Shown: positions 5,578 through 55,844 of the stretch, one piece after another
How the letters are laid out: each line of letters opens with the position of its first letter
Position numbering within the stretch: position 1 is the first letter of the stretch
NCBI RefSeq assembly: GCF_017794765.1
Contig: NZ_CP051236.1
Location: 865,307 to 929,306 of the forward strand
Length of the DNA stretch: 64,000 nt
Reading direction: 5' to 3'
Source: Nitratireductor sp.
GTDB taxonomy: Bacteria; Pseudomonadota; Alphaproteobacteria; Rhizobiales; Rhizobiaceae
The notes under the pieces: generated by a model
Databases searched by the model: none
Told to the model about the DNA's origin: nothing
What the model saw: only the letters and a program-made list of their open reading frames with translations
Translations under genes and position numbers: made by a program

Positions 5578-5590
5578 GGGGCATGTGACA

Positions 5591-13332: not shown

Positions 13333-14820
13333 ATGCGAAACGAGATAAACGTTGAAACAGGGTTGTTCATCGATGGTGTGGCTCGGTCCGCACAAGATGA
13401 CCGAACCTATGCGATATACAATCCCGCTCGTCCTGATGAGCGTGTTGGCCATGCTGCAAGAGGTTCCGTATCCGATGTGGATGCGGCTGTCCGCGCTGCT
13501 CACACGGCGTTTCCGTCATGGGCCGAACGCTCCTATGAAGAGCGCGCCAGGTTGCTGAGGAAGATCGCTGAAGTTCTGGTCGCCGATGAGGACGATGTCG
13601 CTTTCCGATCCAGCCTGTTTTGCCGTGAGCACGGGAAAATTCTGAAGGAAACCCGGCTCGAGATGACGCGACTTGGTGACCGTTTCCTGCTTTCGGCATC
13701 CTATGCGGACCGGCTTCAGCAGGACGAGACGCTTCGCGGCCCTCCGTTTGACACGATCATCACGCGTCAGCCTCGCGGTGTCGCCGCGTTGATCGTGCCA
13801 TGGAACTGGCCGCTCTCGATTCTCGGCGCCAAGTTGCCGCAGGCGCTCATCGCGGGAAACACGGTAGTCGTCAAGCCGTCACAGAATTCTGCACTGGCGC
13901 CGACGCTGACACTGCACAAGATGGCGGCGCTTTTGCCGCCAGGCGTGCTCAATGTGGTGACCGGAAGCTCAGGCGACATCGGCGACGCCCTGGTGGGGCA
14001 CCCGCTTGTCCGACGGGTCAACTTCACCGGCTCCATTGAGGTGGGCAAGCATGTCATGCGTACGGCGGCCGAGCACCTGACCCCGGTGACACTGGAATTG
14101 GGCGGCAACGACGCGGGCATCGTGCTACCCGATGCGACGCTTGATAGCGGCGCCTTCATGCGCATGTATCTTGGCGCGTTCATGTCGACTGGGCAGATCT
14201 GCATGGCGCTCAAGCGGCTCTACGTTCATCGCTCGCGCTATGACGAGGTGGTGGACGGTCTTTCAGCAGCCTGCGCGCGGCAGGTGGTCGGCGACGGCAT
14301 GCTGCCGGACACGACCATGGGGCCGCTGAACAACCGCAAGCAGCTCGGCATCGTGCAGGGCATGATCAAGGAGGCGCGCAGCGCCGGGGCGGAGGTTAAG
14401 GAGTTCGGCACCGTGCCTGACGCGGAACTCTACGCGAAAGGCTATTTCCAGAAGCCGACGCTGGTTTTCGGGCCGGAGCCGGGCCTCAGCGTCGTGCGCG
14501 ACGAGCAGTTCGGCCCGGTACTGCCAATCATACCCTTCGACGACGAAGCGGAAGCCGTGCGGCTCGCCAATGACAGCGACTTTGGCCTCTGCTCTTCTGT
14601 TTGGACGGAGGATCGCGACAGGGCACTCGCCATCGCCCGGCAGCTTGAGGCTGGCTATACCTACATCAACGGACATGGTCCTACCGCGCAGGACAGCCGG
14701 GGGCCGTTCGGCGGGTTCAAGCAGTCGGGCATCGGCCGCAATCTGGGCTACGAAGGCGTGCTCGAGTTTCAGGGATATCATTCGATCTCGGCGCCCGCCG
14801 GCTGGCTGGACGGCGCCTGA
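13333..14820 (+). CDS. NAD(P)-dependent aldehyde dehydrogenase
   Basis: 495 aa of the ALDH superfamily. VPWNWPL, the catalytic Glu in ELGGND, the nucleophilic Cys in GQICMA, and PFGGFKQSGIG near the C terminus are all present. It oxidises an aldehyde to the acid with NAD(P). The ATG at 13333 follows GGGAGGA. It shares an operator type with rdhA and pobA, so a (halo)hydroxybenzaldehyde to (halo)hydroxybenzoate step, feeding the dehalogenase, is a reasonable guess. The family alone would also allow vanillin or an aliphatic aldehyde. Confidence 0.93.
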   Translation: MRNEINVETGLFIDGVARSAQDDRTYAIYNPARPDERVGHAARGSVSDVDAAVRAAHTAFPSWAERSYEERARLLRKIAEVLVADEDDVAFRSSLFCREHGKILKETRLEMTRLGDRFLLSASYADRLQQDETLRGPPFDTIITRQPRGVAALIVPWNWPLSILGAKLPQALIAGNTVVVKPSQNSALAPTLTLHKMAALLPPGVLNVVTGSSGDIGDALVGHPLVRRVNFTGSIEVGKHVMRTAAEHLTPVTLELGGNDAGIVLPDATLDSGAFMRMYLGAFMSTGQICMALKRLYVHRSRYDEVVDGLSAACARQVVGDGMLPDTTMGPLNNRKQLGIVQGMIKEARSAGAEVKEFGTVPDAELYAKGYFQKPTLVFGPEPGLSVVRDEQFGPVLPIIPFDDEAEAVRLANDSDFGLCSSVWTEDRDRALAIARQLEAGYTYINGHGPTAQDSRGPFGGFKQSGIGRNLGYEGVLEFQGYHSISAPAGWLDGA

Positions 14821-14963: not shown

Positions 14964-17900
14964 ATGCGCCTTTTTTCTCACGCCCGACGCCCGGTTCATC
15001 TTGGCCCATATCCATCGGAGAGGCTGGGCCGCACGCAGGACATGCCAGACCTGACACGGGTGAGGGGCAACGGTACGCTGCGCGAAAGCTTCGACAACGA
15101 TCCGCTGCATCTGGGCAAAACGGTCAGCGATTACATGTGCGCACTCGATGCCGTCCGTGATGGGGATCACAACCCGTTGCGCGCCGAAATTCCCGACAGC
15201 CCGCGCGAGCGGGCTCAGCATATGAAGGCGGCCGGCTATTTCCTTGACAGCGCTTTGGTTGGCATCTGCAAGATTGACGCCGCGCACCGGTTGGCCGAGC
15301 CTGTCGAGCACCCGCTGCTTCGCACCACCTCATATTCTCACTCCGAGGAAAAGCTCCGGCTGCGGTTCAATCCGGGTGCGGTGATCCGCCAGATGGGGCG
15401 GGCCCTGGAACTGGCCGACAGGCCGTTGGACCATCACACCGATGCGGTCGTCTTTCTGGTGGAATATCCGCGCGATCCCGGCGTCAATGAGCCGGGGGCC
15501 GGCTGGATCACAGATCTGCAGGAATGGCGCGCTGCCTTGCGCAGTGCCGAGACGGCGGCGGTGGTGGCGAACTACCTGCGGGTGCTGGGGTACGAGGCAC
15601 GCAGCCATACGGCCACCACGACAAATTTCAACCTCAACCGGCTGGCGGTGTCGGCGGGTCTGGCGCAGGTTGGTCGTGATGGAAAGATCAGCAATCCTTT
15701 CATCGGAACGCGTTTCGGCCTGTCTGTCGTCACGACGACGCTGGAGATGGAGCCGGATGAACCGCTGAAGACGCAGAGCCTTGCTGATCGCATACGCGCC
15801 AAGGGTGCAGGCTGGTGGGTGGGCTATAGCAGTCCGAAAAACGCCCGCAACCAGATTGATTTCGCCAGGCGCAATTTCAAGGACAGCCGCTACCCGGTAG
15901 AGAAGCTGAAGCGTGTCGAGAAGACGACAACCTATATTGACGAGGAGCGAATTCCCCGCGTTCCCAAAAGCAGCGAGTTCTTTCTTCGTGCAGCCTTTGG
16001 CGATCTTGGCAAGGCCCCGATGGAGGCATCCAAGGACGGGTATTCGGTCGCAAAGGCACCGCTGGCGGCAGCGTTGCGCCTTGCACTCAATACCTATTCG
16101 CTGTTGCAGCGCGGCAAAGAAGCGCCGCAGCGCGCCGGCGGGTACGAAGATCCCAGGCGCAATGCGGACCTGATCAAGGCGACGATGCACTTCCTCGGGG
16201 CGGATATCTGCGGCATCTCGCGCGCGCCCGACTGGGTCTGGTACTCCCACCGTCAGGACGGCAGCGAGATGGAGGTTCAGCATCCACTGGCCGTTTCGGT
16301 GATGATCGATCAGGGCTATGAGACCATGGATGGTGCCAGCGGAGACGACTGGATTTCAAGTGCCCAGTCGATGCGGACCTATATGCGCGCCGGCCTTGTC
16401 TGTGGTGTCGTGGCACAGCATCTGCGGTATCTCGGCTTCTCGGCAACAGCGCATTCGGCAGCCGACAGCGATGTCATCCAGACACCGCTGGTGCTGCTGG
16501 CGGGCCTTGGGGAGGTCAGTCGCATTGGTGAAACCATTCTCAATCCGTTTCTCGGGCCCCGTCTCAAAACCGGTATTCTGACCACCGATTTCCCGATGGA
16601 GGTGGACCAGCCTATCGATTTCGGTCTCCAGAAATTCTGCGGCTCGTGCAACAAATGCGCCCGCGAGTGCCCGTCAGGAGCTATCTCATCGGGTCCGAAG
16701 GTTATGTTCAACGGGTACGAGATCTGGAAGGCGGATGTGGAGAAATGCACTCGCTACCGTGTAACAAATCTCGGTGGCTCCATGTGTGGACGCTGCATGA
16801 AGACCTGTCCATGGAACCTCGAAGGTCTCGTGCGCGAAGCGCCGTTTCGCTGGGCGGCAATGAACTTTCCCTCGGTGGCCAGGCTCATTGCCCGACTGGA
16901 CGATGCTGTGGGGCGTGGCAAGATCAACCCAGTCAAGAAATGGTGGTGGGATATCGCCAGTGACGGAACCGGCAAGGTGGTGAAGGCGGTTGAGACCAAC
17001 CGCCGCGACCTGAACCGCCACATCGACCTGAGATACGAGGATCAGACGCTTGCCGCCTATCCAGCCCCGCTGGCACCACCACCGCTGCCAATGCCCAATC
17101 CTGTCGACCGCGAGGCAGGCATCGCAGCTTACAGGGCACTGCTCGATCCCGATGAATACCAGGCGCGAGTCAAGCGCGGTGAGACGAAAAATCTGACCCC
17201 AGGCCTCACCAGACTGTCGGGACCGTCACCTGTCATCGTTGCCCGCGTCAAGCGGCGTTGGCAGGGTTCCGCGGATGGCAAGATCGACCTGTTCGAGATC
17301 GAGACCCGTGACGGCTCGCCGATGCCCGCTTTCACCGCCGGTGCGCATATCGATGTCACCGTTACCCCGCAGTTCATTCGCCAGTTCTCGCTGGCAGGCG
17401 ACCCACAGAAGCTCGACACGTATCTTGTCGGTGTTCTGCGCGAGGACGAAGGGCGCGGCGGTTCGAAAAAGATCCACCAGATGCTGAAACCGGGCGTTCC
17501 GGTCGTCATTTCACAGCCGCGCAATCATTTCCCGGTCATCGCTGAAGCCAGACGGCATCTGCTGCTGGCCGGTGGCATCGGGGTGACACCGTTGATTGCC
17601 ATGGGCCATGAGCTGCACAGGGCAGGTGCCGACTTCACCCTTTACTACAAGGCGCGGACACGCGCCCAGGCGGCCTTCATCGCGGAGCTGGAGGAAGTGC
17701 CATGGTTCGATCGCGTTCGCTTTCATTTCAGCGACGAGAACCGGCTCGACATCGCCGATGTTCTTGGCGACTATCGGTCCGGCGATCATCTTTACACATG
17801 CGGTCCTTCGCCCTTCATGGACGCGATCTTCGAGACGGCGAAGGCCAGGGGCTGGCAGGATGACGCTCTGCATCGAGAATATTTCTCCGTTCCCGACGGC

Positions 17901-18182
17901 ATGGAATACGAAAACCACCCGTTCACACTGGAACTCGCCAGGTCCGGAGCGGTGATCGACGTGCCTGCAGGCCTCAAAGCGACCGAGGCGCTTGAGAAGG
18001 CTGGCTACGTCGTCGATGTCAAATGCTCGGACGGTCTGTGCGGCGTTTGCTCAACAGGCTATCTTGAAGGAGAAGTGGAACATCGGGACTTTGTGCTCAG
18101 CAGGGAGCAGCGAAAAAAGCGCATGATCTTGTGTTGCTCGCGCGCCGCTGCCGCCGAGGGGCGGATCGTTCTGGACCTTTAG
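14964..18182 (+). CDS. rdhA: Self-sufficient B12-dependent reductive dehalogenase fused to a flavin/[2Fe-2S] reductase
   Basis: 1072 aa, cytoplasmic (no Tat signal, no RdhB anchor gene). Residues about 1-340 are a vestigial copy of the B12-binding domain; 340-555 are the active copy. Ser469, Tyr473, Lys535 and Arg599 sit at exactly the spacing I recall for Ser422/Tyr426/Lys488/Arg552 of Nitratireductor pacificus NpRdhA. Two [4Fe-4S] motifs follow: C559-C562-C565-C569 and C595, C608-C611-C615. From about 770 a phthalate-dioxygenase-reductase-like part has RQFSL (flavin, R806), GGIGVTPL (nicotinamide, about 870) and a [2Fe-2S] site C1021, C1026, C1029, C1057 or C1058. The fusion matches the layout of BhbA, which dehalogenates 3,5-dibromo-4-hydroxybenzoate using NAD(P)H. 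The start at 14964 was chosen for GGAGGAG six nt upstream; an ATG at 14949 is the alternative. The product would be 4-hydroxybenzoate, the substrate of the nearby PobA. Confidence 0.95.
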   Translation: MRLFSHARRPVHLGPYPSERLGRTQDMPDLTRVRGNGTLRESFDNDPLHLGKTVSDYMCALDAVRDGDHNPLRAEIPDSPRERAQHMKAAGYFLDSALVGICKIDAAHRLAEPVEHPLLRTTSYSHSEEKLRLRFNPGAVIRQMGRALELADRPLDHHTDAVVFLVEYPRDPGVNEPGAGWITDLQEWRAALRSAETAAVVANYLRVLGYEARSHTATTTNFNLNRLAVSAGLAQVGRDGKISNPFIGTRFGLSVVTTTLEMEPDEPLKTQSLADRIRAKGAGWWVGYSSPKNARNQIDFARRNFKDSRYPVEKLKRVEKTTTYIDEERIPRVPKSSEFFLRAAFGDLGKAPMEASKDGYSVAKAPLAAALRLALNTYSLLQRGKEAPQRAGGYEDPRRNADLIKATMHFLGADICGISRAPDWVWYSHRQDGSEMEVQHPLAVSVMIDQGYETMDGASGDDWISSAQSMRTYMRAGLVCGVVAQHLRYLGFSATAHSAADSDVIQTPLVLLAGLGEVSRIGETILNPFLGPRLKTGILTTDFPMEVDQPIDFGLQKFCGSCNKCARECPSGAISSGPKVMFNGYEIWKADVEKCTRYRVTNLGGSMCGRCMKTCPWNLEGLVREAPFRWAAMNFPSVARLIARLDDAVGRGKINPVKKWWWDIASDGTGKVVKAVETNRRDLNRHIDLRYEDQTLAAYPAPLAPPPLPMPNPVDREAGIAAYRALLDPDEYQARVKRGETKNLTPGLTRLSGPSPVIVARVKRRWQGSADGKIDLFEIETRDGSPMPAFTAGAHIDVTVTPQFIRQFSLAGDPQKLDTYLVGVLREDEGRGGSKKIHQMLKPGVPVVISQPRNHFPVIAEARRHLLLAGGIGVTPLIAMGHELHRAGADFTLYYKARTRAQAAFIAELEEVPWFDRVRFHFSDENRLDIADVLGDYRSGDHLYTCGPSPFMDAIFETAKARGWQDDALHREYFSVPDGMEYENHPFTLELARSGAVIDVPAGLKATEALEKAGYVVDVKCSDGLCGVCSTGYLEGEVEHRDFVLSREQRKKRMILCCSRAAAAEGRIVLDL

Positions 18183-18235: not shown

Positions 18236-19123
18236 TCAGCCGAGGCGCGCGAGGAGCTTTTGTGCAAGAAGCCGATAGTCGGCCTTTTCGGTCTCGCTCA
18301 GGTCGTCGATCTGCAAGGAACCGATGATCTTCTGCCATTCGGCAGTGGCCTGCGCCATGCGTCCCGACAGGCCGAGATCGGCGGCCGTCTTTGCGGCTTC
18401 CTCCATCTCGGCGGCGCGCCGCGTGCCATGCACCATGGCGCGCTCGAGCATGTAGGCCGAGCGCTCGGCCCAGCCGAAACCCGGAAAGGTTTTCTCAAGC
18501 GAAGAAAGAACCACCTCGTCGACGCCCTCGCGGGTCGCCGACAGAACGCATTCGAGCACCAGCGCCTCGATGCCCTTGACCATGATGCTGCGGATCATCT
18601 TGATCGCGGATGCCGTTCCGACCGGTCCCTCGGCCGGCGCCGGGCGCATGTCGAGAGTCTGAAGGGTGGCCAGCGCTTCCATGGCATGCGGGCCACTCAC
18701 CAGGAGCGGTGCGTGATGGCGCAGGGGCAGAACAGGCGACATCACCGCCACATCGACATAGCGTCCGCCGGCAGTCTCGATTGCCTTTGCCGCTTCCCGC
18801 TTGGAGGACGGGGCACAGGAATTCATGTCGCAATAAAGGGCGCCAGCGCCGATATGTGCGGCCACCTCGCGGGCCGCATTTTGCGCCTGGTCGGCGGTTA
18901 CTGTACTGAAAATGAGGCCGGCGCCTTGCAACGCTTCCTTGAGGGTTGGGCAGCCCACCACACCGGTGCGCCCGTAATCTGCGCGCTTGGCCGCCGCCAC
19001 GCTCCCGATCGGGTTGTCGGTCTTGATGTCGAACGCCTTGACCAATTGGCCTTGGCGCGCACCCCATCCGCCGACGAAGGCGCTTGCCGCTTCGCCGAAA
19101 CCGACAAAGGCTATGGTCTGCAT
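18236..19123 (-). CDS. NAD(P)-binding 6-phosphogluconate-dehydrogenase-like protein (DUF1932 type)
   Basis: 295 aa. An N-terminal Rossmann fold (MQTIAFVGFGEAASAF) is followed by a beta-hydroxyacid-dehydrogenase-like middle (CDMNSCAPSSK, VDVAVMSPV) and a helical C-terminal domain resembling DUF1932. The start at 19123 (MQTIAF) gives the dinucleotide motif at the N terminus; the frame upstream is unrelated. It is the last gene of the pobA-ligABC strand, 19 bp after ligC. No step of the textbook 4,5-cleavage pathway needs it; it may handle a substituted or side-product intermediate. Function unassigned. Confidence 0.82.
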   Translation of the reverse strand: MQTIAFVGFGEAASAFVGGWGARQGQLVKAFDIKTDNPIGSVAAAKRADYGRTGVVGCPTLKEALQGAGLIFSTVTADQAQNAAREVAAHIGAGALYCDMNSCAPSSKREAAKAIETAGGRYVDVAVMSPVLPLRHHAPLLVSGPHAMEALATLQTLDMRPAPAEGPVGTASAIKMIRSIMVKGIEALVLECVLSATREGVDEVVLSSLEKTFPGFGWAERSAYMLERAMVHGTRRAAEMEEAAKTAADLGLSGRMAQATAEWQKIIGSLQIDDLSETEKADYRLLAQKLLARLG

Positions 19124-19142: not shown

Positions 19143-20078
19143 TCAGGGCTGGATAAGGGCATCAATACGATCGATGGCGCGCATGGCTGGCAGCACGTCG
19201 CCGATGGCCGATCGGACCGGTCCAACTCCGTTAATGGCGTCGATGAAGGCCTGATCCTGATCGAGAAAAGCCGCGCCGGACAACGGTATCGGCTGGCGCT
19301 CGTGATCCTCCAGCACATCGCGGAAGACATGGAATGTGCCGCTGTCGCCGATATAGCGATAGAATCCGCCGAACGGGCCGCGGTTGTTGAATGAGAGGGC
19401 GAGGGAGAGCAGCGGACCGCCGTGCGCCTTTAGCGCGACGCTCATGTCCATGGGAATGCCGAGTTCCGGATGCAACGGCCCCGCCTGGCCAAAGGCGCGG
19501 GGATCGGGATCGCCGGTCAGCCAGATAAACAGGTCGATCGTGTGGCAGGCATGATGCCACAGAAGATTGTCGACCCAACTGCGCGGTTCGCCATGCATGT
19601 TCAGATTGGTGCGCCGGAAGAAGAATGTCTCCGCCACAAGGTGCTGAAGTGTGAAAGAGCCATCGTCGATCCGCGCCTTCAGATGGCGGTGAGCCGGCGA
19701 GAATCGGCGGGTATGGGCTGCCATCGCCACCTGGTGGGGCCGGGAACCGGCGAGCGCGGCAAGCGCCTCGCAGGAGGCAAGATCAAGACCGATGGGGATC
19801 TCCGCGAGGACGTGCTTGCCGGCGTCAAGCGCCCTGGTCGCATGCTCCGGGTGGAGGGCGGACGGGCTGGCGACCATCACCGCATCGATGTCGTCGCGTT
19901 GCAGCACGGCGTCGAGATGGGGCGAGGTCGCAGCGATGTTCCATTTGTTGGCGAAGGCAGCCCCCGCCGTCGCCTCGCCATGGACCAGCGCCACGACCTC
20001 CACTCCGGCGATGCGCGACAGTGACTGCATATGCGTGTCAGCAATCGCGCCCTCGCCAATGACAGCGATCCGCACCAT
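19143..20078 (-). CDS. ligC: 4-carboxy-2-hydroxymuconate-6-semialdehyde dehydrogenase (LigC-like)
   Basis: 311 aa of the Gfo/Idh/MocA family. Rossmann motif VIGEGAIADTH, AEIP NAD-binding loop (AGKHVLAEIPIG) and the C-terminal substrate domain with WHHACHTID. LigC oxidises the hemiacetal form of the protocatechuate 4,5-cleavage product to 2-pyrone-4,6-dicarboxylate with NAD(P). Its place directly after ligB on the same strand supports this over other members of this large family. Confidence 0.9.
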   Translation of the reverse strand: MVRIAVIGEGAIADTHMQSLSRIAGVEVVALVHGEATAGAAFANKWNIAATSPHLDAVLQRDDIDAVMVASPSALHPEHATRALDAGKHVLAEIPIGLDLASCEALAALAGSRPHQVAMAAHTRRFSPAHRHLKARIDDGSFTLQHLVAETFFFRRTNLNMHGEPRSWVDNLLWHHACHTIDLFIWLTGDPDPRAFGQAGPLHPELGIPMDMSVALKAHGGPLLSLALSFNNRGPFGGFYRYIGDSGTFHVFRDVLEDHERQPIPLSGAAFLDQDQAFIDAINGVGPVRSAIGDVLPAMRAIDRIDALIQP

Positions 20079-20100: not shown

Positions 20101-20952
20101 CTACTTGTTGCGGTAACAGGCGAGGCCTGCCGCGGTCAGCGAAGCTGATACATGGTAGTGCTGATACACCTCCTCCACTTCCAGGTTCATGGCGCCGCGC
20201 GCTACAAGCCACATGATGAGCTCGGCGCCCTCATGGCCTGCTTCCTTCATGAAAACGCCGTTCGGGATCCTCGTCAGGGCCATCGGGTCGGAGACCATCT
20301 TGTCAAGGAACATGCGGTCGAAATTAGGCTGCATGAAGCCGGAACGCTCGCCCTGAAGCTGGTGCGACATGCCGCCCGTCCCCATGATCAGCACCCGCGT
20401 ATCCTTGGGATAGGCATCGACTGCCTTGCGAATTGCCTGGCCCAGCTTGTAGCAGCGCGCCGCGAGCGGCAGCGGGAACTGGATGGTGTTGACGGTGATG
20501 GGGATGACGCGGGTCGGCCATTCCTCCACCTCGCCGGCGGGACCGCCGAAGAACACGCTCATGGGAACAGTGAAGCCGTGATCCACCGTCATTTCCTGGA
20601 ACATGGTCATATCGAATTCCTGGGCAACCAGGTGTTCGATCAGATGCCAGCTCAGATCCGGGTCGCCCTGGAATGGCGGGATCGGGCGGGGGCCCCAGCC
20701 TTCGTCGCCCGACAGATATTGTTCGGCGGCGCCGATGCCGAAGGTTGGTACGCGGTCGAGGAATACTTCCAGTCCATGGTCGTTGTAGACGACGATGGTA
20801 ACGTCAGGCTTTAGCTCCTTGACGAACTCCTTGGCTGGGAGATAGCCGTCGAACAGCGGCTTCCAGTAAGGGTCCTGCGTGATTCCGGTATCCATGGCGA
20901 TGCCGATGGAGGGAACGTGGCTTGTCGTAACGGCGGCAATGATTTCAGCCAT
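20101..20952 (-). CDS. ligB: Protocatechuate 4,5-dioxygenase beta subunit
   Basis: 283 aa class III extradiol dioxygenase (LigB fold). Iron ligand candidates are His12 (TTSHVP), His59 (YNDHG) and Glu in MKEAGHEGAE; the general-base His lies in GTGGMSHQ. This is the catalytic subunit that opens protocatechuate between C4 and C5 with O2. It starts after TAGGAGG, 9 bp after the alpha-subunit stop, so the two are co-translated. Confidence 0.96.
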   Translation of the reverse strand: MAEIIAAVTTSHVPSIGIAMDTGITQDPYWKPLFDGYLPAKEFVKELKPDVTIVVYNDHGLEVFLDRVPTFGIGAAEQYLSGDEGWGPRPIPPFQGDPDLSWHLIEHLVAQEFDMTMFQEMTVDHGFTVPMSVFFGGPAGEVEEWPTRVIPITVNTIQFPLPLAARCYKLGQAIRKAVDAYPKDTRVLIMGTGGMSHQLQGERSGFMQPNFDRMFLDKMVSDPMALTRIPNGVFMKEAGHEGAELIMWLVARGAMNLEVEEVYQHYHVSASLTAAGLACYRNK

Positions 20953-20961
20953 GGAAACCTC

Positions 20962-21372
20962 CTATTGATCCCGGTGGGCGTTGAGCTTGGCGCGGAATTC
21001 CTCAAGCGTCATGCTGTTCTGCTGCGCTCCCACATGCTGCATCGAAACATGGTCGATCGCCGCGAGCTTGAACACGTAGTAGATGTTGCCGCCGGAGCGG
21101 ATCATGCCGATCCAGTCGCGTTCGAGAACCAGCCGTTTCGATTCCTCACTAAGGCCAAACCGGTCGCAATATGCGGCCTCGTCGGCTGCGAATGCCTCGC
21201 GATTTTCCTGTTTCGTCAGCGACATGCACATCTTGTTGAGCGGGTAGTTCTTCTGGCTGCGAGCGCCGTCGAACAGATACGTGCCTTCCAGCGAGCGGGC
21301 CAGCCGCTTGTCTTCCTCAATGCGTTCGGTGATCGATGGCGTGCTGCCGCTCTCTTCATTGGACGATGACAT
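20962..21372 (-). CDS. ligA: Protocatechuate 4,5-dioxygenase alpha subunit
   Basis: 136 aa from the ATG at 21372 (MSSSNEESG), which follows AAGGAGG; a longer frame to 21462 lacks an RBS. The LigA family pattern is visible in SLEGTYLFDG, the LNKMCMSL segment and RDWIGMIRSGGNIYYVFKLA. It caps the active site of LigB in the alpha2beta2 enzyme. The 191-bp gap to pobA upstream may hold a secondary promoter. Confidence 0.95.
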   Translation of the reverse strand: MSSSNEESGSTPSITERIEEDKRLARSLEGTYLFDGARSQKNYPLNKMCMSLTKQENREAFAADEAAYCDRFGLSEESKRLVLERDWIGMIRSGGNIYYVFKLAAIDHVSMQHVGAQQNSMTLEEFRAKLNAHRDQ

Positions 21373-21563: not shown

Positions 21564-22742
21564 TCAATCCTCGAACGGAAGGCCGATATATTGCTCGGCA
21601 AGTGCTGCCTGCGCGCGCTCGGACACGCACAGATGATCGTAGTCGTTGATACGCACCTTCTTCTCGAACGGCGTTTCCTGCGGGAAGACGTGCAACAGTT
21701 TGGTCAGCCACCAGGAAAGCCGTTCAGCCGACCAGACGCGGCGCAGTGCCATCGCCGAAAAGCCGTCTAGATAGGCGTCGTCGCCTTTTGCGTAGTGGGT
21801 CTCGAAGGCTCGGGCCAGATAGTAAACATCCGAGACGGCCAGGTTGAGCCCCTTGGCGCCGGTCGGCGGCACGATGTGCGCGGCATCGCCGGCGAGGAAC
21901 ATGCGGCCGTAGCGCATCGGTTCGGCGACGAAGCTGCGCAGCGGAGCGATGGACTTCTCGATGGACGGGCCGGTGACGATCTGGTTGGACAGCTCGTCGG
22001 GAAAACGGATCTTCAGCTCTTCCCAGAAACGGTCATCGGGCCAGTCGTTCAGATCGGTGTCGAGGTCGCACTGGATATAGTAGCGGCTGAGCATGGGATT
22101 GCGCTGCGAAGCGAGCGCGAAACCGTTGTCATGCTGGGCGTAGATGATGTCGGGCAGGGGCGGGGTCTCCGACATGATACCGAGCCAGCCGAACGGATAG
22201 ACCTGCTCGTAGGTTTTCAGAATATCGGCAGGGATCGACTGGCGACCGATACCGTGAAAACCGTCGCAGGCGGCGATGAAGTCACAGTTGATGCGTTCCT
22301 GCTTGCCGTCCTTGATGTAGGTCACATAGGGCTTGTCGCCCGTTAGGTCATGCAGCTTTACATCGGCGGCCTCGTCGATGATCTCCGCGCCCGCTTTCTC
22401 CCGTGCTGTGTATAGGTCCTCGGTGATCGCCGTCTGGCCATAGGCCATCATTGGCTTGCCCGTATATTTGACGGTATCGATGAAGAACGGATTGCGCCCT
22501 TCCCATACGATGTGGGTACCATCATGGAGATGTCCCTCGCGGTCCATGCGCTCCCCGAGACCCACGTCGCGCAGCAGCTTGATGGTTCCATATTCCAGCA
22601 CGCCGGCGCGTATGCGCTTGAGCACATAGTCCTTGCTCTGCCGCTCCAGAACGATGCTGTCGATCCCCTTCAGATCGAGAATATGGGAAAGCAGCAGCCC
22701 GGCAGGGCCTCCACCGATAATGGCGATGCGCGTTTTCTTCAT
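21564..22742 (-). CDS. pobA: 4-hydroxybenzoate 3-monooxygenase
   Basis: 392 aa flavoprotein (the characterised enzymes are about 394 aa). GGGPAG FAD motif at residues 9-14, the CDGFHG segment and the C-terminal FAD motif GDAAHIVPPTGAKGLN. It converts 4-hydroxybenzoate to protocatechuate using NADPH and O2. The start at 22742 (MKKTRIAIIGG) was chosen because the frame upstream runs into the regulatory region. It is divergent from the IclR regulator and first gene of the pobA-ligA-ligB-ligC strand. It links the dehalogenase product to ring cleavage. Confidence 0.96.
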   Translation of the reverse strand: MKKTRIAIIGGGPAGLLLSHILDLKGIDSIVLERQSKDYVLKRIRAGVLEYGTIKLLRDVGLGERMDREGHLHDGTHIVWEGRNPFFIDTVKYTGKPMMAYGQTAITEDLYTAREKAGAEIIDEAADVKLHDLTGDKPYVTYIKDGKQERINCDFIAACDGFHGIGRQSIPADILKTYEQVYPFGWLGIMSETPPLPDIIYAQHDNGFALASQRNPMLSRYYIQCDLDTDLNDWPDDRFWEELKIRFPDELSNQIVTGPSIEKSIAPLRSFVAEPMRYGRMFLAGDAAHIVPPTGAKGLNLAVSDVYYLARAFETHYAKGDDAYLDGFSAMALRRVWSAERLSWWLTKLLHVFPQETPFEKKVRINDYDHLCVSERAQAALAEQYIGLPFED

Positions 22743-25234: not shown

Positions 25235-25969
25235 ATGGCCCACGACAAGACCGCTCTCGTAATCAGTGCCCATTCAGCCGATTTCGTCTGGAGGGCGGGC
25301 GGCGCAATCGCGCTGCATGCAAAGCTTGGATACCAGGTGACGGTCGTCTGCCTGTCCTATGGAGAGCGTGGCGAATCCGCGAAGCTGTGGAAATCTGAGG
25401 GCATGACCCTCGACAAGGTCAAGGCCGAGCGTCGCCGCGAGGCCGAAAACGCTGCCCGGGCGCTCGATGTTCACGATATCCAATTCTTTGATCTGGGCGA
25501 TTATCCGCTCGAGATCGATCGCGATGCGAAGTACAGGCTGGTCGACGTGATCCGCGCCGTGCAGCCCCGTTTCATGCTTAGCCACTCGCATTACGATCCG
25601 TACAATCTCGATCATTCGCATGCCACGAAGATCGCCATGGAATGCCGGATGATCGCGCAGGCCTGGGGACACAATCCCGGCGAAAAGGTGCTCGGTGCGC
25701 CGCAGCTTTATCTCTTCGAGCCGCACCAGACCGAGCAGATGGGCTGGAAGCCGGACACGTTCCTCGACATCACCGACGTCTGGGACAAGAAAATGCAGGC
25801 CATCGAATGCATGGAAGGCCAGGAACATCTCTGGCACTTCTACACGAATGTCGCCGAGAACCGCGGCAATCATTTTCGCCGCAACTCGGGAGGTCAGTCG
25901 GGCGGCCGCCCCGCCAAATACGCGGAGGGCTTCCAGTCTGTTTATCCGCGCACCATCGACGAACTGTAG
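25235..25969 (+). CDS. galB: 4-oxalomesaconate hydratase, PIG-L/LmbE family (GalB-like)
   Basis: 244 aa. The zinc motif near the N terminus reads AHSADF (residues 12-17), and SHSHYDPYNLDHSHA supplies further His ligands. GalB of Pseudomonas is a PIG-L-fold enzyme that hydrates 4-oxalomesaconate (keto/enol form) to 4-carboxy-4-hydroxy-2-oxoadipate, replacing the unrelated LigJ. No LigJ-type second amidohydrolase is present in the cluster, so this gene fills that step. First gene of a four-gene operon. Confidence 0.88.
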   Translation: MAHDKTALVISAHSADFVWRAGGAIALHAKLGYQVTVVCLSYGERGESAKLWKSEGMTLDKVKAERRREAENAARALDVHDIQFFDLGDYPLEIDRDAKYRLVDVIRAVQPRFMLSHSHYDPYNLDHSHATKIAMECRMIAQAWGHNPGEKVLGAPQLYLFEPHQTEQMGWKPDTFLDITDVWDKKMQAIECMEGQEHLWHFYTNVAENRGNHFRRNSGGQSGGRPAKYAEGFQSVYPRTIDEL

Positions 25970-25981
25970 GGGCCTTTCCGC

Positions 25982-26653
25982 ATGAATGTCGTGGTACAGA
26001 ATATCGAGCGTGTGGATCCGGCAATCGTCGAGGGGCTCGGCAGATGCGGCGTTTCCACGGTGCATGAGGCTCAGGGGCGCAAGGGGCTCCTCGCCTCCTA
26101 CATGCGGCCGATCTATCCGGGCGTACGGCTGGCCGCCTCTGCCGTCACCATTTTGGCGCCGCCCTGTGACAACTGGATGGTGCATGTTGCCATCGAGCAG
26201 GTGCGGGCGGGTGACATTCTGGTTCTCGCAACCACATCTCCGTCCGACGCCGGTTATTTCGGCGATCTTCTGGCCACGTCGATGCAGGCGCGCGGTGGCG
26301 TAGGGCTGATCATCGATGCCGGCGTGCGCGATGTGCGCGACCTTACCGAGATGCGCTTCCCCGTGTGGTCGAAAGCGATCTGCGCTCAGGGGACGGTCAA
26401 AGAAACGCTTGGTTCGGTCAATGTTCCGGTCGTGTGCGCTGGCGAGCTTGTTCATCCGGGCGATGTCATCGTTGCCGATGATGACGGTGTTTGCGTGGTG
26501 CGGCATGCGGAAGCGGCAGACGTGCTTGCAAAGGCCCGCGAGCGCGAGGCGAACGAGGACGCCAAGCGCGCCCGGCTGGCTGCAGGCGAACTCGGCCTCG
26601 ATCTTTATGAGATGCGCTCGCGCCTGGAGCAGAAGGGGCTGAAATATGTCTGA
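25982..26653 (+). CDS. ligK: 4-carboxy-4-hydroxy-2-oxoadipate aldolase, RraA-like fold (LigK/GalC)
   Basis: 223 aa. The class II HMG/CHA aldolase signature is seen as GDLLATS (94-100) and D112-A-G-V-R116-D117, the Arg-Asp pair that positions the substrate and divalent metal. It cleaves the hydrated intermediate to pyruvate and oxaloacetate, closing the pathway. It begins 12 bp after galB and overlaps the next gene by 8 bp. RraA itself lacks aldolase context; the operon makes the catabolic assignment strong. Confidence 0.92.
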
Positions 26654-27704
26654 CGGCGTGCGCTGCATGTGGATGCGCGGTGGTACCTCGCGGGGCGGGG
26701 TCTTCCTCGCCGCCGACCTGCCCGCTGACACGGCTGCGCGCGACGCGTTCCTGCTGGGTGTGATGGGGTCTCCCGACCCGCGTCAGATCGACGGACTTGG
26801 TGGAGGCGATCCGCTGACCTCGAAGGTCGCGATCGTTTCCCCGTCCACGCGTGACGATGCGGATGTCGATTATCTGTTTCTGCAGATATTCGTCGATCAG
26901 GCGCTGGTAACCGACGCGCAGGGCTGCGGCAACATGCTGGCCGCCGTCGGTCCTTTCGCTGTAGAGCGAGGTCTGGTGCGGGCATCGAACGGCGAGACGC
27001 GCGTCCGGATCTATATGGAGAACACGGGCAAGGTGGCGGTCGCGCGGGTTGCCACGCCTGGTCGGAAGGTGACCTATCGCGGCGCGGCGCGCATCGACGG
27101 CGTTCCCGGTTCGGCGGCGGCGGTGCCGCTCGAGTTCCTCGACGTCGCCGGTTCGAGCTGCGGCGCGCTGCTGCCGACAGGCAGGGTGCTCGACATGATC
27201 GACGGGGTCGCGGTGACCTGCATTGACAACGGCATGCCAGTGGTAGTGCTCACCGCCAGCGACATGGGCATCACCGGGTATGAGACACGCGAGGAGCTTG
27301 ACGCCAACACTGCGCTCAAGGCGCGCCTTGAAACCATTCGTCTGATTGCTGGTCCGATGATGAATCTCGGTGATGTCTCGCAGAAATCTGTGCCGAAAAT
27401 GACTATGGTTGCGCCGCCCCGCGGCGACGGAGCGATCACGACGCGGACATTCATCCCACATCGCTGCCATGCCTCGATTGGTGTCTTTGGCGCTGTCAGT
27501 GTCGCGACTGCCTGCCTCCTGCCCGGTGCGCCGGCCGCCGCTATCGCGGTGGTGCCGGAGGGCTTTGACAAGGTGCTCCTCATAGAGCATCCCTCTGGCG
27601 CGACCCCTGCGATCCTTACAGTCGACGGGGAGGGTGTGGTGACCGGAGCCGGTATGCTGCGCACGGCGCGCAAGCTTTTCGATGGCGAGGTGTTCGCCCA
27701 ATGA
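26646..27704 (+). CDS. ligU: 4-oxalomesaconate tautomerase, PrpF family (LigU/GalD-like)
   Basis: 352 aa of the PrpF/diaminopimelate-epimerase-like fold. [17 protein letters not shown] at the N terminus, [14 protein letters not shown] and a C-terminal [11 protein letters not shown] segment are typical. GalD/LigU enzymes move the double bond of 4-oxalomesaconate so that the hydratase can act. It overlaps ligK by 8 bp and ligI by 4 bp. Generic PrpF (aconitate isomerase) is the alternative, but the neighbours decide. Confidence 0.92.
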
Positions 27705-28594
27705 CGATGGAAAAGACGATCATGACGGCCGAACCCCCGACTTTTCACCCGAACCCCTCGAAGCCGGCCTATGTGCCACCTGCGGGCGCGGTCGACGCGC
27801 ATTGCCATGTTTTCGGTCCCGCGGCACGCTTTCCTTATGCGCCGGAGCGGAAATACACGCCCACTGATGCGCCCAAGGAAATGCTTTTCTCCCTGCGCCG
27901 GCATCTTGGTTTCACGCGTAGCGTCATCGTCCAGGCGAGCTGTCATGGCAGGGATAATGCCGCGATGATCGATGCGCTGGAGGCGGAACCGGAGACCACA
28001 CGCGGCGTTGCTGTCGTCGCCCCTTCCGTTTCTGACGAGGACTTGCAGATGATGGACCGCGCCGGCGTACGCGGCGTACGGTTCAATTTTCTGAAACGGC
28101 TGGTGGATACCGCGCCGCGTGACGACTTCCAGCGCATCGCCGAACGGGTGGCTGAACTCGGCTGGCACGTCGTCGTCTATTTCGAGATGCAGGACCTGCC
28201 AGAGCTCGAACCCTTTCTGCGCGGCCTTCCGACGACGGTGGTCGTCGACCATATGGGGCGGCCCGATGTAGCAGCGGGTGTCGATGCTGCGCCGTTCCGT
28301 GCCTTTGTCGATATGCTTGAAGACGAGAAGTTTTGGGTCAAGGTCGGCTGCCCCGAGCGTCTGACGGTCGAGGGACCACCCTATCACGATGTCGCGCCCT
28401 TCGCGCGCAATCTCGTCGAGACCTATTCCGACAGGGTGCTGTGGGGGACTGACTGGCCGCATCCGAACATGAAAAGTCACATTCCCGATGACGGATTGCT
28501 GGTCGATCTCATTCCCTCGATCGCCCCAACCCCCGACCTGCAACGCAAGCTGCTCGTCGCCAATCCCTCGCGCCTCTATTGGGGCGAGATGTAA
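27701..28594 (+). CDS. ligI: 2-pyrone-4,6-dicarboxylate hydrolase (LigI)
   Basis: 297 aa amidohydrolase-superfamily protein. DAHCHVFGP at 32-40, FNFLKRLVD, VDHMGRPD and the catalytic Asp in GTDWPHPN match LigI. It opens the pyrone made by LigC to 4-oxalomesaconate. LigI is metal-independent among amidohydrolases. It overlaps the tautomerase gene by ATGA. An N-terminal extension of about 20 residues precedes the domain; the ATG at 27722 is an alternative start. Confidence 0.95.
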   Translation: MTMEKTIMTAEPPTFHPNPSKPAYVPPAGAVDAHCHVFGPAARFPYAPERKYTPTDAPKEMLFSLRRHLGFTRSVIVQASCHGRDNAAMIDALEAEPETTRGVAVVAPSVSDEDLQMMDRAGVRGVRFNFLKRLVDTAPRDDFQRIAERVAELGWHVVVYFEMQDLPELEPFLRGLPTTVVVDHMGRPDVAAGVDAAPFRAFVDMLEDEKFWVKVGCPERLTVEGPPYHDVAPFARNLVETYSDRVLWGTDWPHPNMKSHIPDDGLLVDLIPSIAPTPDLQRKLLVANPSRLYWGEM

Positions 28595-28643
28595 CGGCAT
28601 ATCGGTTGCCGGTCAGGCTGCCGTCAGGAGATTGAAATTGAGA

Positions 28644-29657
28644 ATGCGTCGTTTAACAACTATCCGTCTTGCCCTTGCGGCTGCCTTTGGCCTCGGACTG
28701 GTGGCAGCCTCGTCTGCCGCGGAACTCCGGCTGGCGCATTTCATGTCGCCGATGCACCACATGCAGAAGCGCATGATGCAGCCCCTCGCGGACAAGCTTG
28801 CCTCCGAGACCGACGGCGAGGTGACGATCCGGATATTTCCTTCGGGCGAATTGAGCAAAAGTGGCGCAGCCCAGTGGAGAACGGCTTTAACCGGTGTTGC
28901 CGACATCACCTTCGGGCTACAGGGCTATACGAGCGAAACCTTCCCACGCACCATGTTTGCCGTCGCGCCGGGCCTGTTTCACTCCTCGGCTGAAGCGACG
29001 ACGGCGATGTGGGAGACTATGGATGCGCTGGCACCCGACTACGAACGCGCCAAGCTGCTTGCCATGTGGGCGGCGGAACCGGCGATCCTCATGACCAAGG
29101 ATGTGCCGATCCGCACTATGGAAGACATGCAAGGGCTGAAGATCCGCACTGCGGATCAGGTGGGCGCCGCCATCGTGCAGGCGCTCGGCGGAACGCCCGT
29201 GCCGCTGCCCGCCAGCGAAATGTATACGGCGATCGACACCGGTGTGATCGACGGCATCATGAGCGATGCCAGCACGATCGAATCCTTCAAGCTGCATGAA
29301 GTCGCCAACTACTTCACGGTAGGCCTGCCTTCCAGTACCTCCGCTTATTTCCTCGTGATGAACCGCCGCAGTTTCGAGCGCCTGACCGCTGACCAGCAGG
29401 CCACGCTCGATGCATTGACCGGTCGCGAACTCAGTATGACGGCGGCGGGGTCCTATGCCACCGAAGCGGCGCGCGGCCTCGACATGGTGCGCGCGGCCGG
29501 CAAAACGATCATTGAGGTCGAGCCGGCGGTGCTCGAGGATTTCCATGCCAAATCGGATGCCGTCATGCAGTCCATGCTCAAAACAGCGGAAGCCGCCGGC
29601 GTGGATGGAAAGGCAATTGTCGAGGGGTTGCGCAACAGCGTCTCGACGACGCGATAA
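28644..29657 (+). CDS. TRAP transporter solute-binding protein (DctP type), copy 1
   Basis: 337 aa with a Sec signal peptide (RLALAAAFGLGLVAASSAA) and the DctP fold: MSPMHHMQ, FPSGELSKS, LKIRTADQVGAA (the family Arg for carboxylate binding) and a DGIMSD segment. It captures an organic acid in the periplasm for the DctQM permease at 30741-32550. A TTG at 28638 has better spacing to AGGAG than the ATG at 28644. It follows ligI by 49 bp and probably continues the same transcript. Confidence 0.92.
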   Translation: MRRLTTIRLALAAAFGLGLVAASSAAELRLAHFMSPMHHMQKRMMQPLADKLASETDGEVTIRIFPSGELSKSGAAQWRTALTGVADITFGLQGYTSETFPRTMFAVAPGLFHSSAEATTAMWETMDALAPDYERAKLLAMWAAEPAILMTKDVPIRTMEDMQGLKIRTADQVGAAIVQALGGTPVPLPASEMYTAIDTGVIDGIMSDASTIESFKLHEVANYFTVGLPSSTSAYFLVMNRRSFERLTADQQATLDALTGRELSMTAAGSYATEAARGLDMVRAAGKTIIEVEPAVLEDFHAKSDAVMQSMLKTAEAAGVDGKAIVEGLRNSVSTTR

Positions 29658-29732
29658 GCAGATTCGACTGGCTGGCGGGAGGGAGCCCGCTGGTGGCGCA
29701 TGGGGCGCCGGACAACAACAGGGAGGAACGAC

Positions 29733-30737
29733 ATGAGACGTGCAGCAGCAGGATTTGCCGGATTGCTCGGCCTGGCACTCGCCGCGATGGCGGGGAGCGT
29801 CAGCGCTACCGAGTTGAAGGTGTCGCATTTCATGAGCCCGATGCACCACATGCAGGCGCGGGTTCTGGAACCATGGACCAGGACACTGACCGAAGAGGCT
29901 GGTGGCGAACTGACCTTCCGCATCTTCCCGTCGGGTGAGTTGAGCAAGAGTCCGGTCGCACAATGGAAAACCGCGCTGACAGGGGTCACGGATATCGCGT
30001 TCGGGCTGCCTGGTTATACGACCGAGAATTTCCCGCGCACCATGCTGGCTGTATCGCCCGGCATGTTCGAAACAGCGGCCGAGGCAACCAACGCCATCTG
30101 GGACAATATCGAAGATATCGCGCCGGATTATGAGCGTGCCAAACTGCTTGCGCTGTGGGGCAGCGAGCCGGCTGTACTGATGACCCGCAACAAGCCGGTC
30201 AAAACGCTGGCCGATGTGAAAGGCCTCAAGATCCGCACCGCCGATCAGGTTTCGGCGGCGATCATCGAAGCCTGGGGTGGGACGCCGGTCCCGCTGCCCG
30301 CGAGCGAGATCTACACCGCAATGGATACCGGCGTGATCGACGGGCTGTTCATCGATCCGAGCGGCGTTCCCTCTTTCCGCCTCGACGAGGTGGTCAACCA
30401 TGTGACTCTTGGGCTGCCAACCCCGTCGTCGGCGTTCTTCCTGGTGATGAACCAGAATGCCTGGAATGGACTCAGCGAAGCCCAGAAAGCGGAGCTGGAC
30501 AATCTTAGCGGCCGGCAACTCAGCCTGGATTCCGCAGCCTCCTACGCGAAGGAGGCCGAGCACGGCATGGACATTCTGAAGAAAGCCGACAAAGAGATCA
30601 TTATGCTCGATGCCGAGGCGCAGGCAGAATTTGTCGCGGCGACCAAGTCCGTTAGCGACAAGCTCGTTGCCGAAGCTGAGGGGCGTGGCGTGGAAAACGC
30701 CGCCGACATTGCAGCAGCTCTCGACAACAAAAAATAG
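29733..30737 (+). CDS. TRAP transporter solute-binding protein (DctP type), copy 2
   Basis: 334 aa, a close tandem paralogue of the preceding protein (same MSPMHHMQ, FPSGELSKS, LKIRTADQV, VPLPASE-YTA-DTGVIDG blocks) with its own signal peptide. GGGAGGAA precedes the ATG at 29733. The two differ in segments lining the ligand cleft, for example DGLFIDPSGVPSFRLD versus DGIMSDASTIESFKLH, so they may bind different members of a substrate family such as halogenated and plain 4-hydroxybenzoates. Confidence 0.93.
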   Translation: MRRAAAGFAGLLGLALAAMAGSVSATELKVSHFMSPMHHMQARVLEPWTRTLTEEAGGELTFRIFPSGELSKSPVAQWKTALTGVTDIAFGLPGYTTENFPRTMLAVSPGMFETAAEATNAIWDNIEDIAPDYERAKLLALWGSEPAVLMTRNKPVKTLADVKGLKIRTADQVSAAIIEAWGGTPVPLPASEIYTAMDTGVIDGLFIDPSGVPSFRLDEVVNHVTLGLPTPSSAFFLVMNQNAWNGLSEAQKAELDNLSGRQLSLDSAASYAKEAEHGMDILKKADKEIIMLDAEAQAEFVAATKSVSDKLVAEAEGRGVENAADIAAALDNKK

Positions 30738-30740
30738 GTC

Positions 30741-31253
30741 ATGACGACGATGATGCGTGCAAAGGAAACTAGACCGACGGTCGCCAGCCGTCTGGCGGAC
30801 GGGTTCGGTCTTCTGGGCGGGATAGCGATCCTGTTTCTGGCCGGACTGGTCTTTTGTGATGTGGTCGGGCGAACACTGGGGTCACCGATTTTCGGTGCAC
30901 GCGATATCATGGTGATGACGCTGGCGGTAATCGCCGCCAGCGGTTTTGCGAGCGGGGCGACACATGGAATTCATATTGCCATCGACGCCCTGCAGAATTT
31001 TCTGCCCCCCTGGCTAAGACGCGGTCAGCTGCTGCTGGCTGACTTCATCAGTTTAGCATTTCTCGCGATTCTCTCATGGCGCAGCTTCGTGGGTGGAATG
31101 GAAGCCGGGGATTTCGGTGAGCGGACGATGCTCCTGTCGTTTCCGCATGCTCCGTTCTACTTCACCCTGTCGTTCGGCCTGGGCCTTTATGCGCTTGTGG
31201 TTGCGTTCGATATCATCAAACAATTGAAGTCGGTGAGCAACGATGCCGAATGA
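30741..31253 (+). CDS. TRAP transporter small permease subunit (DctQ type)
   Basis: 170 aa with four membrane helices; the FCDVVGRTLG segment near helix 1 is characteristic of DctQ. It starts 3 bp after the second binding-protein stop and overlaps the large subunit gene by 11 bp. It forms the membrane complex with the DctM subunit, powered by a sodium gradient in characterised systems. Confidence 0.94.
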   Translation: MTTMMRAKETRPTVASRLADGFGLLGGIAILFLAGLVFCDVVGRTLGSPIFGARDIMVMTLAVIAASGFASGATHGIHIAIDALQNFLPPWLRRGQLLLADFISLAFLAILSWRSFVGGMEAGDFGERTMLLSFPHAPFYFTLSFGLGLYALVVAFDIIKQLKSVSNDAE

Positions 31254-32550
31254 ACTCTATGGCCTGCTGGGCATCGTCGGCCTTGCGGTCCTCCTGATCC
31301 TGCGTGTTCCGGTTGCGCTCGCCATCGGCACGGTCGGTTTTGTGGGCATCACGGCGCTGAGCGGCGCCAACACCGCGTTCTACATGGCGTCGTCGGAAGC
31401 GTTCGCTACTGTCACGCAATACGAACTCGTCGTCATTCCACTGTTCGTTCTGATGGGCAACATTGCCAGCGCATCGGGGCTCAGCCGTGACCTCTACGAT
31501 GCGGCCTTCGCCTGGATCGGCCGGCTGCGTGGCGGTCTCGCCTCGGCCACGGTGGTCGGCTGCGCGGGTTTCTCCGCCCTCAGCGGCTCGTCCATCGCTT
31601 CGGCCGTTACGATGGGACGTGTGGCCCTGCCGGAAATGAAGCGCTTTGCCTACTCCGATGCGCTGGCGACCGGGTCGGTGGCGGCCGGTGGCACCCTCGG
31701 CATCCTGATTCCGCCGTCGACCGGATTTATCATCTATGCAACGCTGACCGAGCAGTCGATCGGCCGTCTGTTCATGGCCGGCATCCTTCCGGGCATCCTG
31801 CTTACCACACTGTTCGTCGTTGCGATCTATATTGTCACGTTGCTCCGCCCGGCCGATGGGCCGGCCGGGGAGCCATTCACCTTAAAGGAGAGCATTCGCG
31901 CTGGCCTGCGTGCGTCGCTGATCGGTGGCATTATCGTCATTACCATCGGCGGCATCTATCTTGGCTTCTTTACCCCCGCAGAAGCCGCCGGCATCGGAGC
32001 GGTACTGACGTTGTTCGTCTCGTTCTTCCGCGGGCGGCTAAGCCTTGCGCAGTGGAAGAACGTGCTAATGCAGACTGTTCGTACCACGTCGATGGTATTC
32101 CTGATCCTCGTCGGCGCCAACATTTTCGCACCCTTTCTGGCGTTGAGCGACCTTCCGCACTTCATCAGCCAGGGGCTGACAGCTCTTGATGTCGGTCCCT
32201 ACGGAGTGCTGTTCCTGATCCTGGCGGCATACATCATCCTCGGAACGTTTCTTGAGGGCCTGTCGCTGCTGGTCATCAGCCTGCCGATCGTCTTCCCCGC
32301 CATCATTGCTGCCGGCTTCGATCCGATCTGGTTCGGCGTCATCGCAGTGATCGTTCTTGAAATGGGGCTGATCTCGCCACCAGTCGGACTCAATGTCTTT
32401 GTCGTCGCCAGTATCGCCGACAACGTGCCGCTGTCGACGGTGTTTCGGGGGATCATTCCGTTCTGGATCGCGATGGCGGTCTGCACGGTCCTGCTGATCC
32501 TGTTTCCATCGATCGCCCTCTATATCCCGCAAACAATGATGGGAAACTAG
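31243..32550 (+). CDS. TRAP transporter large permease subunit (DctM type)
   Basis: 435 aa, about 12 membrane segments of the DctM/ion-transporter superfamily, with GCAGFSALSGSSIASAVTMG and GGTLGILIPPS, both highly conserved in DctM proteins. It carries the substrate passed on by the two binding proteins. The catabolic genes on either side suggest an aromatic acid as substrate; this is inference. Confidence 0.95.
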   Translation: MPNELYGLLGIVGLAVLLILRVPVALAIGTVGFVGITALSGANTAFYMASSEAFATVTQYELVVIPLFVLMGNIASASGLSRDLYDAAFAWIGRLRGGLASATVVGCAGFSALSGSSIASAVTMGRVALPEMKRFAYSDALATGSVAAGGTLGILIPPSTGFIIYATLTEQSIGRLFMAGILPGILLTTLFVVAIYIVTLLRPADGPAGEPFTLKESIRAGLRASLIGGIIVITIGGIYLGFFTPAEAAGIGAVLTLFVSFFRGRLSLAQWKNVLMQTVRTTSMVFLILVGANIFAPFLALSDLPHFISQGLTALDVGPYGVLFLILAAYIILGTFLEGLSLLVISLPIVFPAIIAAGFDPIWFGVIAVIVLEMGLISPPVGLNVFVVASIADNVPLSTVFRGIIPFWIAMAVCTVLLILFPSIALYIPQTMMGN

Positions 32551-55823: not shown

Positions 55824-55844
55824 CAGACCGGACGGAACCGAAAA

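Follow-up and report, generated by a model that had tools for sequence, protein, structure and literature searches.

A further BhbA-type self-sufficient reductive dehalogenase near protocatechuate 4,5-cleavage genes in Nitratireductor

BhbA-type reductive dehalogenases have been described before, both in their domain plan, with its vestigial duplication and fused PDOR, and in their function: the pathway of BhbA is published, a relative debrominates at the expense of NADPH, and such enzymes are termed "self-sufficient" (PMC10463259; this paper, PMC7565698 and PMC13101508 are cited throughout from excerpts). The vestigial segment makes an interface like the one joining the subunits of the respiratory dimer (PMC10463259). 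In NpRdhA the halogen of the substrate is placed on cobalt, the hydroxyl group is held by S422, K488 and R552, and Y426 is the proton donor (PMC7565698). BhbA acts on 3,5-dibromo-4-hydroxybenzoate (PMC13101508). Here we analyze rdhA (14964..18182, + strand) in a 64,000-nucleotide stretch of a Nitratireductor sp. genome (contig NZ_CP051236.1, positions 865,307 to 929,306), which we call the window. Since duplication, PDOR fusion and an NADPH-driven example have all been reported (PMC10463259), the window RdhA is a described kind of enzyme: a further orthologue in the BhbA-type class, from which structures have been solved and an NADPH-driven member has been purified. Judging from its sequence and by analogy with BhbA, it very probably debrominates a 4-hydroxybenzoate-type substrate as a carbon source, with its N-terminal copy of the cobalamin domain as a non-catalytic partner.

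The rdhA frame runs for 1072 codons without interruption and encodes 1072 amino acids. The start codon chosen in an earlier, sequence-only reading of this DNA agrees with NpRdhA and with annotated relatives; an in-frame ATG at 14910 was rejected because these proteins begin at an MRL-type methionine. Searching plasmids with tblastn, we found 69.9% identity over the full length (1072 amino acids) to a protein of Comamonas sp. 7D-2 and 89.4% to one of Nitratireductor sp. OM-1. The Comamonas protein (WP_015585978, on pBHB) is called BhbA under the same accession in PMC10463259. Identity is 92% to a protein of N. pacificus and 91% to one of N. soli. The NCBIfam reductive dehalogenase model TIGR02486 scores 211.9 bits on the window protein (cut-off 160.35), and Pfam-A gives no dehalogenase family for it. 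An identity as QueG was rejected, TIGR00276 reaching 36.8 bits with a cut-off of 200. From the N-terminus, the protein consists of two copies of the cobalamin domain, the first inactive and the second active, followed by a domain with two [4Fe-4S] clusters and a phthalate-dioxygenase-reductase (PDR) module. By sequence, the solved structures of NpRdhA match with E 2e-169. The model of the whole protein has a predicted local distance difference test (pLDDT) score of 82.6, and its residues 1–740 superpose on NpRdhA (6ZXX) with Z 39.2 and a root-mean-square deviation (rmsd) of 2.4 over 675 aligned residues. It is the one full-length RdhA found in the window genome, whose assembly is 86.1% complete.

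For conservation we used the best 80 of at least 564 relatives, found with the patterns MFNGYEI and MCGRCMK; both lie in the ferredoxin region, so that conservation there is partly selected for. Together with the window protein and 10 others they form an alignment of 91 rows, which contains two duplicates (L089=L009 and L090=L010). Removing redundancy at 90% leaves 73 rows, in which the outcome at the seven catalytic and N-copy positions does not change.

Ser469, Tyr473, Lys535 and Arg599, proposed as the catalytic residues by the sequence-only reading, are all where it placed them, as are Ala191 and Gly252 of the N-terminal copy. The spacing that it gave for NpRdhA is exact as well: Ser422, Tyr426, Lys488 and Arg552 align with the four residues at spacings of 4, 62 and 64. 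The NpRdhA-type sequence used for this comparison was taken from a genome of the same genus, and its first 20 residues are identical to the 4RAS chain. Each of the four residues is kept in 91 of 91 rows. Three of them, Ser469, Tyr473 and Lys535, lie in the functional cobalamin-binding copy (about residues 390–556; 16131..16631, +). Arg599 belongs to the ferredoxin-like domain that follows (about residues 557–640; 16632..16883, +; Fer4_16 and Fer4_7), where the cysteines of the two [4Fe-4S] clusters (C559, C562, C565, C569, C595, C608, C611 and C615) are each present in every row.

The N-terminal half had been called a dead duplicate of the cobalamin domain, and that it is a duplicate is borne out. 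Comparing family alignments with HHalign, residues 80–340 (78 rows kept) match residues 390–556 with a probability of 99.7%, E 2e-25 and a score of 162.6 over 155 columns. Fifty column-shuffled C-terminal copies reach at most a score of 21.3 and a probability of 2%, and two other RdhA domains score 14.6 and 14.2; with these controls far below 162.6, we rejected a chance likeness of the two halves. The earlier reading had proposed comparing predicted structures of the halves. Modelled alone (residues 80–345, pLDDT 83.2), the N-terminal copy fits best onto the functional half of NpRdhA (residues 349–615; Z 19.5, rmsd 4.5, 173 aligned), a result that may reflect exposure of the predictor to NpRdhA itself, so that the independent evidence comes from comparing the sequences. 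It also fits PceA and QueG, both at Z about 15, and, less closely, CblC/MMACHC (Z 8.9).

The vestigial copy (about residues 80–275; 15201..15788, +) has lost its catalytic residues. In the HHalign register Glu187, Ala191 and Gly252 face Ser469, Tyr473 and Lys535, so that the Tyr and Lys positions are indeed replaced and a glutamate occupies the Ser position. Arg599 itself sits in the ferredoxin domain, a part missing from the first copy. Across the 91 rows, position 187 is never Ser, position 191 never Tyr and position 252 never Lys. Position 187 is mostly Ala (33 rows), Asp (22) or Glu (18); position 191 is Ala in 44 rows, Cys in 38, Gly and Ser in 3 each, Asp in 2 and His in 1; position 252 is Gly in 72, Ser in 9, Thr in 4, Glu and Arg in 2 each, and Ala and Gln in 1 each. 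NpRdhA has Ala, Asp and Arg; the NpRdhA-type rows without the PDR module (L098 and L099) are the most distant and their N-copy columns the least surely aligned. Hence, the loss is general in our sample. Mean identity to the window protein among non-redundant rows is 0.445 for the N-terminal and 0.633 for the C-terminal copy.

Catalytically, then, the copy is dead as had been claimed, but it is neither idle nor special to the window protein, since the loss is family-wide in the sample and the segment just after the copy supplies a phenylalanine. This Phe340 (15981..15983, +) is invariant in the 91 rows and corresponds to F291 of NpRdhA, which is listed among the conserved active-site residues (PMC10463259) and shifts upon substrate binding (PMC7565698). 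Because Phe340 is invariant and equals an active-site residue of NpRdhA, we regard the N-terminal half as a scaffold with an extension into the active site. The loss of three residues across the sampled family makes the idea of a "pseudo-dimer" directly testable.

The C-terminal flavin/[2Fe-2S] reductase of the sequence-only reading is present too. Residues 754–1072 (17223..18179, +) comprise flavin, NAD(P)-binding and [2Fe-2S] domains, the last with a Fer2 match, and resemble phthalate dioxygenase reductase (2PIA) with E 3e-54 by sequence. By structure, Z is 28.9 over 306 aligned residues, with an rmsd of 11.4 that probably stems from a different domain placement. The motifs are R806-x-F/Y-S809 for the flavin, GGIGVTP for NAD(P), and C1021, C1026, C1029 and C1057 for the [2Fe-2S] cluster. 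Among the 89 rows having the module, R806, S809, G870, G873, T875, C1021, C1026 and C1057 are kept in all, and C1029 in 88 with one gap. For JtRdhA, NADPH use has been described as coupled 1:1, in air (PMC10463259).

The mechanism that we propose combines the architecture, homology, residues, fold and gene context observed here with the chemistry and NADPH use of published relatives. NAD(P)H would reduce the C-terminal reductase by hydride transfer to its flavin, from which electrons would pass singly to the [2Fe-2S] cluster, on to the two [4Fe-4S] clusters and to a base-off cobalamin in the second copy of the cobalamin domain. On the cobalt would sit the bromine (or iodine) that a 4-hydroxybenzoate-type acid carries ortho to its phenol hydroxyl. 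Ser469, Lys535 and Arg599 would hold the phenolate, and Tyr473, with Lys535, would donate the proton, so that the halide leaves and the ring keeps the hydrogen. The N-terminal copy would be a non-catalytic structural partner in the role that a second subunit plays in respiratory dimers, and Phe340, in the segment after it, would help to wall the active site. The product, 4-hydroxybenzoate, would go through PobA to protocatechuate and into the adjoining 4,5-cleavage genes. Activity and substrate of the window enzyme itself are what we infer.

The genes around rdhA would supply the steps after dehalogenation. Directly upstream lies an aldehyde dehydrogenase (13333..14820, +; PF00171, E 5e-135), which has a 64% relative near bhbA on pBHB. 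Downstream on the − strand follow a DUF1932/6-phosphogluconate dehydrogenase-like NAD-binding oxidoreductase (18236..19123, by domain scan) and a Gfo/Idh/MocA oxidoreductase (19143..20078; PF01408, PF19858), which, judging from its context and its family, is probably a LigC-like semialdehyde dehydrogenase. Next come a LigB-like class III extradiol dioxygenase beta subunit (20101..20952; NF009901, NF009902 and NF009903 over cut-off, PF02900), a LigA-like protocatechuate 4,5-dioxygenase alpha subunit (20962..21372; PF07746, E 7e-38, the NCBIfam LigA models staying below cut-off) and PobA, the 4-hydroxybenzoate 3-monooxygenase (21564..22742; TIGR02360, 583.2 bits, cut-off 538.7). On the + strand, a PIG-L/LmbE-type protein (25235..25969; BshB models below cut-off, PIG-L annotation in a 94% relative on pOM-1) is, from its place in the cluster, probably the 4-oxalomesaconate hydratase GalB. 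It is followed by the 4-carboxy-4-hydroxy-2-oxoadipate aldolase LigK (25982..26653; TIGR02798 and NF006731 over cut-off) and a 4-oxalomesaconate tautomerase (26646..27704; NF033377, 533.1 bits, cut-off 440). An amidohydrolase (27701..28594, +; PF04909, E 3e-57, NF042924 below cut-off) fits by position and is probably LigI, the 2-pyrone-4,6-dicarboxylate lactonase. A tripartite ATP-independent periplasmic (TRAP) transporter with two DctP binding proteins, DctQ and DctM (28599..32550, +, first start codon tentative) is a candidate importer of the aromatic acid. The last gene encodes a thiamine-diphosphate enzyme (32552..34309, +; PRK08327 model NF006203, 634 bits, cut-off 456) whose closest solved relatives are benzoylformate decarboxylases (4Q9D, E 4e-30).

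The cluster from the aldehyde dehydrogenase to the thiamine-diphosphate enzyme recurs in pOM-1, N. pacificus and N. soli. rdhA and the protocatechuate 4,5-cleavage genes stand together on the single contig of the window genome, and in Nitratireductor sp. OM-1 on an 858-kb plasmid.

Two further observations concern this neighborhood. A LysR-type regulator (23849–25144, −), situated between an IclR regulator and the galB-ligK genes, has two tandem HTH_1 domains (PF00126 in two stretches, 27% identical, E 1e-5) ahead of one substrate-binding domain. At the start of the window, the open reading frames (ORFs) at 281–1279 (−) and 5585–6601 (+) are alike, by eye paralogous and dipeptidase-like, and lie near peptide-type ATP-binding cassette (ABC) transporter genes.

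Because 4-hydroxybenzoate feeds PobA and the adjoining 4,5-cleavage genes, the halogenated ring would be a carbon source and not a respiratory acceptor, and the neighbors point to bromo-4-hydroxybenzoates as carbon sources. PobA lies in the examined flank of 10 of the 12 loci with at least 62% identity (L009–L020) versus 2 of the 68 farther ones (L042 and L070 among L021–L088; Fisher p 2.5e-9), a split that was drawn after the table had been inspected, from relatives that are not independent and with some flanks short at contig ends. Among the near loci it is missing from L017 and from L011, the latter on a contig that stops 1 kb upstream. LigA and LigB occur together in 9 of the 12 near flanks versus 1 of the 68 farther ones (L086). 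A quick tree built from 89 rows places the window protein in one group with the other three Nitratireductor rows of the orthologue (support 100). A 14-row set (support 100) takes in both this group and BhbA, and 13 of its rows carry the PobA label. Besides the way in which the split was drawn, several points weigh against our reading. The tree requires four changes of the PobA label, of which the starred branches force at least three. LigK and tautomerase genes stand near rdhA without PobA in 4 of the 68 farther loci (L021, L033, L040 and L086), so that the link to the Lig pathway extends beyond the BhbA-like set. The pocket departs from that of NpRdhA at several residues (F310 is S361, P311 is V362, A419 is S466 and N452 is A499), and the halogen range may therefore differ as well. 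JtRdhA was unable to dechlorinate (PMC10463259). Finally, for cobalamin synthesis, neither CobN nor CobB is over cut-off in the window genome. CobN was matched in 9 of 10 genus genomes (over cut-off in 7, in pieces or partial in two more), with none in the window genome; CobB is over cut-off in 8 of 10, the window genome reaching only 19.7 bits in its one contig at 86.1% completeness.

A missing replicon explains this gap as well as auxotrophy with imported cobalamin does, because the incomplete assembly is a single contig and one relative carries its cob genes on a separate 262-kb contig. CobS is over cut-off in the window genome. A DNA search with the 20-kb stretch adjoining the relative's cob cluster gave 36 matches in the window genome, patchy and at best 70% over 1.4 kb. 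The window also holds a cobalamin riboswitch (RF00174, 53424–53620, +, 129.5 bits), 35 kb from rdhA. It is followed by genes (53779–57802) for a luciferase-like monooxygenase and for an ABC transporter resembling BtuFCD, and an RF00174 riboswitch was found upstream of the same monooxygenase in all three other same-genus loci scanned. A near relative of this monooxygenase (at least 76%) occurs in 7 of 10 genomes, including the window genome and one in which it is in pieces; six of these seven are without a full-length RdhA.

The same enzyme could have another main substrate, such as bromophenols, halogenated 4-hydroxyphenylacetates or breakdown products of halotyrosine, with PobA and Lig forming a general aromatic island. 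The range of JtRdhA includes tetrabromobisphenol A and 3-bromo-4-hydroxyphenylacetate (PMC10463259), the pocket differences listed above fit such a shift, and both rdhA in Nitratireductor and bhbA in Comamonas have genes for a thiamine-diphosphate enzyme and an aldehyde dehydrogenase nearby. Against it stand the concentration of PobA in the BhbA-like set and the dibromo-4-hydroxybenzoate on which BhbA acts (PMC13101508), and we consider another main substrate rather unlikely. Far less probable is a ligand-binding rather than vestigial N-terminal copy, the ligand being another corrinoid, the substrate or an electron carrier. Its fold is like the cobalamin domain and CblC/MMACHC, and residues 80–345 contain 20 invariant columns in 51 rows; the copy is without cobalamin in published relatives, as far as the excerpts go. 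A respiratory, energy-conserving enzyme with a membrane anchor would have the RDH domain (TIGR02486) and a PceA-like fold in common with the window protein. However, the two cobalamin-domain copies and the fused PDR module in one chain, and neighbors that are aromatic catabolism genes, led us to reject the PceA/CprA type, and we give this explanation hardly any credence. Among the neighboring ORFs scanned, which do not cover every ORF, none was named as an RdhB membrane anchor.

Debromination of a 4-hydroxybenzoate-type acid thus being our preferred reading, one may still ask where such an acid would come from. The thiamine-diphosphate enzymes near rdhA and near bhbA are both over the NF006203 cut-off and 32% identical to each other; the aldehyde dehydrogenases are 64% identical. 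Beyond Nitratireductor and Comamonas, such a thiamine-diphosphate gene lies in the flank of one more locus (L013, Hydrogenophaga, 32%). Because both genes accompany both dehalogenases, a route from glyoxylate or aldehyde precursors suggests itself: the two enzymes would make halo-4-hydroxybenzoate, RdhA would dehalogenate it, and PobA and Lig would mineralize the ring. To our knowledge, the breakdown of bromoxynil would need neither enzyme. We tentatively suggest that in nature the cluster could serve to degrade halogenated compounds of the 4-hydroxyphenylglyoxylate or 4-hydroxybenzaldehyde type, such as those derived from marine halotyrosine metabolites, and not halo-4-hydroxybenzoates alone. 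The open-access PMC literature yielded no paper linking dibromo-4-hydroxybenzaldehyde with biodegradation, which is not proof of absence. Judging from the linkage of the two genes to rdhA and bhbA, BhbA-type enzymes could originally have acted on natural halogenated aromatics, not on herbicides.

How does the locus compare with known systems? The C-terminal 320 residues of RdhA resemble phthalate dioxygenase reductase in their flavin, NAD(P) and [2Fe-2S] domains, but 2PIA is a free-standing reductase. The partner of phthalate dioxygenase reductase is an oxygenase. NpRdhA (4RAS, 6ZXU, 6ZXX, 6ZY0 and 6ZY1) shares the order of N-terminal copy, C-terminal copy and ferredoxin domain as well as the catalytic set; unlike the window protein it has no fused PDR module, and the pocket differs at the four residues given above. 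JtRdhA of Jhaorihella thermophila is, by its published description, likewise a self-sufficient, NADPH-driven RdhA-PDOR fusion (PMC10463259). The closest of the compared systems is the self-sufficient RdhA of N. pacificus pht-3B (L009), with 92% identity and the same cluster from aldehyde dehydrogenase to thiamine-diphosphate enzyme; it is probably RdhA3 of PMC10463259. That genome (G004) holds three RdhAs, two of them self-sufficient (L009 among them) plus NpRdhA (L098, L100, L009), versus one full-length RdhA in the window genome. BhbA of Comamonas sp. 7D-2 agrees with the window protein in domain order and length, and LigA, LigB, PobA, an aldehyde dehydrogenase and a thiamine-diphosphate enzyme are encoded nearby. 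It differs in residing on a beta-proteobacterial conjugative plasmid with another gene order, where a tripartite tricarboxylate transporter protein takes the place of the TRAP transporter and a carbon-nitrogen hydrolase family gene is also found. Set beside these systems, the window RdhA is one more orthologue, useful chiefly as a context case in which rdhA and the protocatechuate 4,5-cleavage genes share one contig.

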